A DNA stretch of 64,000 bases from Albidovulum sediminis (GTDB lineage: Bacteria; Pseudomonadota; Alphaproteobacteria; Rhodobacterales; Rhodobacteraceae): the NCBI RefSeq assembly GCF_025380365.1, contig NZ_JAOCQF010000003.1:496001-560000 (forward strand), given 5' to 3'. This document shows, one piece after another, positions 7,270-9,008 of the stretch. The position numbers and the translations under genes were made by a program. Positions within the stretch are counted from its first letter, which is position 1. Each line of letters begins with the position of its first letter. The notes beneath the pieces are model-generated. The model was given only the letters and a program-made list of their open reading frames with translations. It made no database searches and was not told the DNA's origin.

Positions 7270-7875
7270 TCACGGACTGGCAGGCGCCGCAAGGCAGTGC
7301 CGGTCCACAACCCGCTGCACCATCGGCGCAAAGTGCCAGTAGTCGGGCGTGGTCATGTCCGCCCGCTTGCCGGCGTCGTCCAGATAGCGGACCTGGATGA
7401 TTTCCTTCAGGTTGGGATTCGTCTCGAACGCGGCCACCTCCTCGGCCGACATCGGCCCGCCCTGTAGACTGAGCGAGTGGATCGACGCCTCCGAAAGTCG
7501 CCTGAAGTATTCGGGCCGTGTCGCGCACAGGTAGCGTTTGGCCGCGACGTGGTGTCGGACGCAGTCGGTCACGACGCTCGGGAAAAACCGCTCCAGCAGT
7601 TCTGCGCCGGCTTCCTCGTGGAACCTGTCCTCGGTGTCGTCCATGCGGAAGGTGCCGAATTCGGATGTGAAGTGACCGATGTCGTGCAGCAGGGCGGCCA
7701 CGACGATTTCCTCGGGCATCGCGTTTTCGGCGGCGAGGGTCGCGCCCTGAAGCATGTGCTGCGCCATAGTCACCGGCTCGCCCAGGTATTCCTCTCCGCC
7801 CCGCCTGTCGAAGATGTCGCCAATGAAGGCCACGATGGTCTCGCGCGACAGGGTCGTGAGATCCGGCCGGGTCAT
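7270..7875 (-). CDS. tmpB: HD-domain mixed-valence di-iron oxygenase, TmpB/PhnZ type
   Basis: Probably cleaves a 1-hydroxy-alkylphosphonate oxidatively to a carboxylate and phosphate. In the TmpB case (R)-1-hydroxy-2-(trimethylammonio)ethylphosphonate becomes glycine betaine. Visible candidate metal ligands are H40, H64-D65, H86, H109 and D166/D167, with Y30 upstream. Their spacing parallels PhnZ (Y24, H34, H58-D59, H80, H104, D161) almost residue for residue. The segment HVAAKRYLC is typical of the family. The start at 7875 overlaps the tmpA-like stop by 4 bases; a longer frame to 8019 overlaps that gene and was rejected. 201 residues. Such proteins are often mislabelled HD phosphohydrolases. 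The exact substrate is inferred from the partner gene. Confidence 0.8.
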
Positions 7876-9008
7876 TCCGCCGCCTCCCTCACCGAAAGCG
7901 CGGCAAGCCGTGACAGCAGCCCGTCCTTGTCGGCGTAGCACCCCTGAAGCCAGCGCGTTCCCGTTCCTGAATAGCCCTTGCGGGCATGAAGAACGCGGGT
8001 GTTGTCGACCACGAAGCATTCGCCGGGGTTCAGGCGGAATGTTACTTCCATGGCCGGATCGTCGATGATCTCACCGAACCGGCGATAGGCCGCGTAATAG
8101 CCCTCCATCTTGTCGAAGGACACGTCCGTGATTGCGGCGGCTGAGCGGTTGTTGAAGCGGACCGCGACAAGTTCTCCGTCCGGCGCAAGCTCGATCATCG
8201 GGCGGCGCGACCGAAGCACCACGCCGGCCTCGCCCGCGTATTCGAACCGCGCGCAATGCTGCGTCAGCAGGTCGAACCCGGCCGGGCTTTCCTCCCGCAG
8301 TCGCTCGGCGGCCCGGAAACCGTCCACAACCATGTTCTCGCCCCCCGCGGCGGAACTTTCGAGGCAGTAGAGCACCTGGATAGTTGGCACCGGATCCCGG
8401 TAGGGGTTGTCGGTATGGGCCTGAAGCCCCAGCCCCGTATAGGCGAGGTTCGTCGGGTTGACGGTAGTCCGCACCTCGAAGTGGCGGCCGTAATTGGTTT
8501 CACGGACGTAGCCGAAAAGGTCCACCACCCGCATCAGCGCGCCGTCCTCAACCGGCCCGCCCAGAAGCTTGCCGAAGCCGTAGCGTGCCACACCGCCAAG
8601 CCAATGGCACAGTGCCAGCGGATCAGCCGAAACGCTGGCAAAATCGCCGGTTGGGACCGCGTGCGTCAGGCCCGCATCCCAGGTCTCGATGCCGGGCGAT
8701 GTCCAGCCGGGGCGGCGATCCTGCGCGCGGTCGTAGCTGCGGTCCAGCAGCCAGGCGGGATCGAACTCAACCGTCTTGCCATCGGGCGCGAAGGACAGGC
8801 GCAGCATCGCCCCCGACATCGCGGCGGTGGCAATCCGCGTGTCCTTGGGTATGTCGGCAAGCGTGATCAGCCTTTGCCCGTTGCCGGGCGACCGGGTCTG
8901 CGCATCCCAGGCGTTGTCGCGCAGCCAGATCGCGTGAAACCGTGCGGTTCGGGTGCCGTCCGAAAGCGTCAGCACGCCGCCGTCGGAAGAGACGGTGACA
9001 GTCGTCAT
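7872..9008 (-). CDS. tmpA: Fe(II)/2-oxoglutarate dioxygenase of the gamma-butyrobetaine hydroxylase family, TmpA type
   Basis: Likely hydroxylates 2-(trimethylammonio)ethylphosphonate at C1, the first step of TmpAB phosphonate degradation. The 378-residue protein has an N-terminal GBBH-like domain (residues 1-90, HAIWLRDN) and a TauD/TfdA domain. The iron-binding facial triad appears as H198-x-D200 and H341, with R352 as the probable 2-oxoglutarate anchor. A strong GGAGG ribosome site precedes the ATG. The gene overlaps the HD-oxygenase gene by 4 bases and is divergent from a LysR regulator. Overlap with an HD-oxygenase argues against a plain carnitine-biosynthesis enzyme, though that remains the main alternative. 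Confidence 0.78.

Follow-up and report, generated by a model that had tools for sequence, protein, structure and literature searches.

It was asked whether the two overlapping oxygenase genes of the window (the whole stretch of 64,000 nucleotides analysed here) serve the degradation of 2-(trimethylammonio)ethylphosphonate (TMAEP), as the first-pass annotation had proposed, or another reaction of their superfamilies. A two-enzyme pathway of TmpA and TmpB was reportedly described in a study of 2019. Its chemistry, with glycine betaine as the reported product, is treated in PMC10574752. The analysis below puts at roughly nine in ten the probability that the locus is a lysR/tmpA/tmpB module that would convert TMAEP to phosphate and glycine betaine and be induced by its LysR-type regulator.

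The tmpA-tmpB gene pair

The features of the locus are listed in Table 1. Coordinates and strand of the dioxygenase and HD-oxygenase genes proved to be exactly as first annotated, including the four bases that they share. The start of tmpB is the overlapping ATG; an open reading frame of 249 aa (7270-8019) merely uses an in-frame start further upstream. The ATGA overlap suggests that translation of the two genes may be coupled. Downstream of tmpB lies a convergent grpE-like gene (6718-7266), and mutS is located beyond the LysR gene, i.e. further upstream of tmpA.

Table 1. Features of the tmp locus, in window positions
Feature	Position	Strand	Basis or remark
tmpA, predicted Fe(II)/2-oxoglutarate TMAEP hydroxylase, 378 aa	7872..9008	-	NCBIfam and PDB matches, residues
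tmpB, predicted HD-domain di-iron oxygenase for C-P bond cleavage, 201 aa	7270..7875	-	NCBIfam and PDB matches, residues
ATGA overlap of tmpA stop and tmpB start codons	7872..7875	-	4 bases shared
LysR-family regulator gene, divergent from tmpA	9102..9974	+	best model GcvA, 155.4 bits, below cut-off 288
Candidate LysR operator TAAGTTGCCATTA, TAA-N7-TTA	9058..9070	-	in the 93-bp lysR-tmpA intergenic region

The predicted hydroxylase TmpA

TmpA of the window passes the NCBIfam equivalog model for this enzyme (NF049936; 599.4 bits, cut-off 400) and stays below the cut-off of the NCBIfam trimethyllysine dioxygenase model. Its best sequence match in the PDB is TmpA (6npb; 541 bits, E = 1.2e-161). 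The protein has the residues H198, D200, and H341, which we take to be the Fe ligands, following the HxD...H triad of the superfamily. It also contains N187, N287, and R288, which are named as the phosphonate-binding residues of TmpA under the same numbering (PMC9296572). When the window sequence is compared with those of the best 80 of 217 named loci, R288 and H341 are invariant in all 81, and N187, H198, and D200 are invariant wherever the contig reaches, two loci (L082 and L140) ending at a contig edge. Position 287 is occupied by Asn in 73 of the 81 sequences and by Ala in the remaining eight.

Alternatively, the first gene might encode a gamma-butyrobetaine hydroxylase (BBOX) for carnitine synthesis, and its neighbour an unrelated HD phosphohydrolase. 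The window TmpA does share the predicted overall fold and the Fe triad of BBOX, and it reaches 409 bits with the BBOX model TIGR02409. However, this score is just under the cut-off of 414.75, while the TmpA model is passed, and the BBOX structures match with 159 bits (human BBOX, E = 1.6e-45) as compared with 541 bits for TmpA. Moreover, R288 aligns with an alanine of human BBOX, whose chains are 24-27% identical to the predicted structure, and the constant pairing with an HD oxygenase (see below) also argues against BBOX. Carnitine synthesis was rejected because the BBOX model remains under its cut-off and because of the arginine in place of this alanine, and we consider this interpretation highly improbable. 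Another member of the superfamily, DfmD of dehydrofosmidomycin biosynthesis (PDB 9J0J), matches with 117.8 bits. DfmD is reported to use TMAEP too, desaturating and rearranging it, and to have Ser183 where TmpA has Asn187 (PMC9296572), whereas the window protein has N187 and also R288.

The AlphaFold model of TmpA (pLDDT 78.6) is metal-free and most similar to 6npb (E = 8.9e-54, TM-score 0.79, 63% identity). It is based on an alignment of 22 rows only; pLDDT falls below 50 at residues 41-46, 184-206, and 344-346, and the low-confidence loop 184-206 contains N187, H198, and D200.

The predicted HD-domain oxygenase TmpB

TmpB of the window passes the respective equivalog model (NF049941; 354.3 bits, cut-off 300) and has its best PDB sequence match in TmpB (6npa; 361 bits, E = 1.1e-107), compared with 104 bits (E = 1.2e-28) for PhnZ. 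The protein contains all residues of the H...HD...H...H...D motif and of the Y30/E33 loop known from PhnZ and TmpB (PMC8177086): the ligands H40, H64, D65, H86, H109, and D166 align with those of both enzymes, in accordance with the PhnZ spacing recognized by the first-pass annotation, and Y30 and E33 form the YxxE loop. All eight residues are invariant in the 81 sequences from the window and the best 80 of 217 named loci. In the AlphaFold model (pLDDT 87.9), the comparison with TmpB and PhnZ structures that had been suggested for this protein gave 6npa as the closest match (E = 6.2e-21; TM-score 0.86/0.92, 82% identity) and PhnZ as the next. Loss of the di-iron ligands, which would have spoken against a TmpB, was found neither in the sequence nor in the predicted fold, the model being metal-free.

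The metal motif and the YxxE loop are also common to PhnZ of the uncultured bacterium HF130_AEPn_1. PhnY*/PhnZ employs a hydroxylase and then an HD di-iron oxygenase, a two-step logic like that of TmpA/TmpB, but its substrate is reported to be a primary amine (PMC8177086). Since TmpB is homologous to PhnZ and matches the models TIGR03276 (Phn-HD) and NF052439 (GmPhnZ), the pair might be a PhnY*/PhnZ system for 2-aminoethylphosphonate or a Gimesia-type system for methylphosphonate. Yet both scores are below the cut-offs (198.3 vs. 214.6 bits and 143.8 vs. 300 bits, respectively), the PhnZ chains share 31-33% identity with the TmpB model as compared with 78-82% for the TmpB chains, and in the PDB and NCBIfam comparisons the best matches of the partner protein are TmpA and BBOX. 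Such a function is thus very unlikely.

The window pair resembles TmpA/TmpB of Leisingera caerulea (PDB 6NPA-6NPD) in the equivalog cut-offs passed, residue numbers, adjacency, and predicted overall fold, the structural alignments showing 61-63% identity for TmpA and 78-82% for TmpB. The passed cut-offs, the nearest structures, and the presence of the reported active-site residues support the original proposal of a TmpA/TmpB pair for TMAEP. It is an ordinary member of the described pathway, and the dedicated NCBI models already name both genes correctly. To this the analysis adds a conserved LysR gene with a candidate operator, the absence of PhnI and PhnG matches throughout the genome, and a divergent TmpA clade.

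Distribution and gene neighbourhood among relatives

TmpB exceeds the cut-off in 18 of the 101 genomes searched and in 12 of the 22 genomes of the same genus, the genome of the window being counted in both cases and some genomes being incomplete. A tmpA gene is adjacent in 17 of these 18 genomes, again including that of the window, and adjoins tmpB in all of the best 80 of 217 named loci, two of which are truncated at a contig edge; the two sets overlap, with several contigs common to both. Thus, the pairing of tmpA and tmpB is not due to chance. The best 80 of the 217 loci stem from Defluviimonas, Frigidibacter, Leisingera, Ruegeria, Roseibium, and other Alphaproteobacteria, and in the TmpA tree the window sequence groups with those of Defluviimonas WL0002 and WL0075 and Frigidibacter RF13.

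Genome G056 contains a TmpB over the cut-off (L059:7771-8352) without tmpA beside it. No TmpA match was obtained in this genome by a profile search, which can miss homologues; the same model matched in the genome of the window (G000). The gene preceding the lone tmpB (L059:6958-7638) was dropped as a candidate partner, as neither Pfam nor NCBIfam gave a match for its product. In G093, a diverged TmpA/TmpB-like pair (L062:7741-9734) shows 46 and 39% identity, with TmpB at 207 bits and below the cut-off, and a second, partial HD-oxygenase-like piece lies upstream of tmpA on the same strand. No phosphonate gene was recognized by NCBIfam among ten proteins encoded in the neighbourhood of L061 and L062.

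In 37 of the best 80 of 217 loci (e.g., L068:6537-7268), tmpB directly adjoins or overlaps at its end a third gene, which partially matches ureidoglycolate lyase (PF04115). These loci belong mostly to Leisingera and Ruegeria, and one of the 37 genes is a 54-aa fragment. Its product is possibly a pathway member. In the TmpA tree the Leisingera branch comprises 13 loci (11 of them named Leisingera; L. caerulea itself is not included), and 12 of the 13 carry the third gene after tmpB, the 54-aa fragment counted, whereas it is missing beside tmpB in the window. The genome of the window contains only a weak match to it (32% identity over about 60 residues). In G056 a homologue is split into two pieces, both interrupted by an internal stop, on a contig other than that of tmpB. 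A PF01663 hydrolase gene comes immediately after tmpB or the third gene in eight of the best 80 of 217 loci (L091 [7269-8096], L116, L118, L121, L130, L131, L135, and L140); the hydrolase of L091 has a very weak PhnA match of 19 bits.

The LysR gene and a candidate operator

The divergent LysR gene, which the first-pass annotation did not list, turned out to be a conserved neighbour. Of the best 80 of 217 named loci, 69 have a LysR homologue in divergent orientation to tmpA, at a distance of 84-144 bp (calculated from extrapolated starts). The other 11 loci lack a LysR match, two of them (L082 and L140) ending at a contig edge. At the TmpB loci of the 18 whole genomes, a full-length match is missing in four cases (absent in L051, L059, and L060; partial in L047). 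According to their identity to the LysR protein of the window, the 69 homologues fall into two groups, 30 with 49-74% and 39 with 37-44%. The third gene mostly accompanies LysR genes of the second group (31 of 39 loci), as compared with three of 30 loci of the first group and three of the 11 LysR-less loci among the best 80 of 217. It is likely that the regulator senses the substrate or a product of the TMAEP pathway.

The candidate operator (Table 1) belongs to a pattern, T[AG]A.TTG...T[TA]AT, that is present in 25 of the 31 intergenic regions of the window's LysR group (window included), with a mean of 0.02 in shuffled sequences, and in none of the 39 regions of the second group. In 21 of the 31 regions a TAA-N7-TNA element begins at one common offset, 31. 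The stricter TAA-N7-TTA is present in 19 of the 31; in the second group the looser TAA-N7-TNA was found in two of the 39 regions, where shuffling gives 3.5. Because the patterns were picked after the alignment had been seen, letters were shuffled singly, and the regions compared come from related sequences, the comparison of 25 of 31 with 0.02 overstates the evidence for an operator. The titles and abstract beginnings that were searched, a collection outside which most subscription journals fall, contain no description of a LysR gene, the third gene, or an enolase gene beside tmpAB.

Phosphonate genes elsewhere in the genome

The genome carrying the window (4.29 Mb, 20 contigs) has an estimated completeness of 100%. 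The first-pass annotation had noted that no C-P lyase or phosphonate transporter is encoded nearby. This holds, and it extends to the whole genome as regards PhnI and PhnG of C-P lyase, for which no match was obtained in searches that each recovered the E. coli control, and as regards PhnC, for which 150 of 176 candidates were scored and none of 152 matches exceeds the cut-off of 266.1, the highest score being 209.5. The PhnD-like family PF12974 has six matches in the genome, and the two examined are both below the phosphonate-transport cut-offs. The best (C15:58941) scores 72.2 against a PhnD cut-off of 261.1 and precedes a histidine kinase gene; the second (C11:1870294) has a single subfamily match of 37.8 against 112.05. 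Thus, the tmp pair is the only phosphonate route found in searches that covered PhnI, PhnG, PhnC, and PhnD-like proteins.

On contig C15 (L063:8804-11091), the gene of the PhnD-like binding protein is directly followed by that of the sensor histidine kinase, an arrangement that suggests sensing rather than transport. The genome also encodes OpuAC-type binding proteins, four with at least 129 bits and a fifth with 29.9 bits, none of which is tied to the tmp locus.

A TmpA clade with an altered phosphonate-binding residue

In eight of the best 80 of 217 loci, all outside the window, Asn287 of TmpA is replaced by Ala (L095, L109 [1119-7952], L115, L117, L126, L128, L133, and L143). The records include Shimia, Lentibacter, Octadecabacter, and others. 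The eight sequences form one group in the midpoint-rooted TmpA tree (support 100/98, the bootstrap being not fully settled), so that the N287A exchange and the accompanying gene content represent one event and not eight. All eight loci have a gene for an enolase-superfamily dehydratase-like protein downstream of tmpB and a zinc alcohol dehydrogenase gene upstream of tmpA. Seven encode an MFS transporter, the eighth contig being 6.7 kb long, and five a LysR protein. A search for the enolase, alcohol dehydrogenase, and MFS genes within a few kilobases around the other 72 of these best 80 loci (E 1e-8) found none, except for an enolase match of 26% in L118. The TmpB proteins of the two N287A loci that were scored (L095 and L115, apparently G013 and G007) are over the cut-off with 351.5 and 355.8 bits, respectively. 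A screen for clade-specific residues retrieved two positions in TmpA (287 and 312) and none in TmpB, a result that argues against TmpB having acquired another substrate.

Because the TmpA tree has deep branches and this clade differs in a phosphonate-binding residue and in gene content, the family may use more than one substrate. It is possible, albeit somewhat doubtful, that TmpA/TmpB is not a single-substrate family and that the N287A cluster would serve an extended route for the breakdown of another phosphonate, probably a hydroxylated one, as residue and gene content hint. The same features, and the extra genes at many of the best 80 of 217 loci, could be taken to mean that the window pair itself acts on another N-methylated or larger quaternary-ammonium phosphonate, with TMAEP as a side substrate. 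However, the window TmpA has retained all three residues reported to bind the phosphonate and does not belong to the N287A clade, and the window TmpB is highly similar to the solved TmpB (see above for identities). Such a preference of the window enzymes is therefore improbable.

Proposed pathway and implications

For TMAEP as the substrate, we infer the following products, cofactor states, and regulation. TmpA and TmpB would be translated from their overlapping genes. Using Fe(II), O2, and 2-oxoglutarate, TmpA would hydroxylate C1 of TMAEP to the (R)-1-hydroxy compound. TmpB, as a mixed-valent di-iron HD-domain oxygenase, would then cleave the C-P bond of this intermediate oxidatively, yielding phosphate and glycine betaine. 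In the presence of the substrate, tmpAB is probably induced by the divergent LysR regulator, and glycine-betaine-type ABC systems are candidates for substrate import.

Marine surveys based on counts of tmpB genes have been reported (PMC10574752). If the N287A branch indeed acts on a different phosphonate under the names TmpA and TmpB, this would matter for such gene counts. As to the window, the conserved divergent LysR gene and the candidate operator make induction by the substrate directly testable. With PhnI and PhnG not found in its genome, tmpAB adds this bacterium to those that likely use a choline-like phosphonate as a source of phosphorus.
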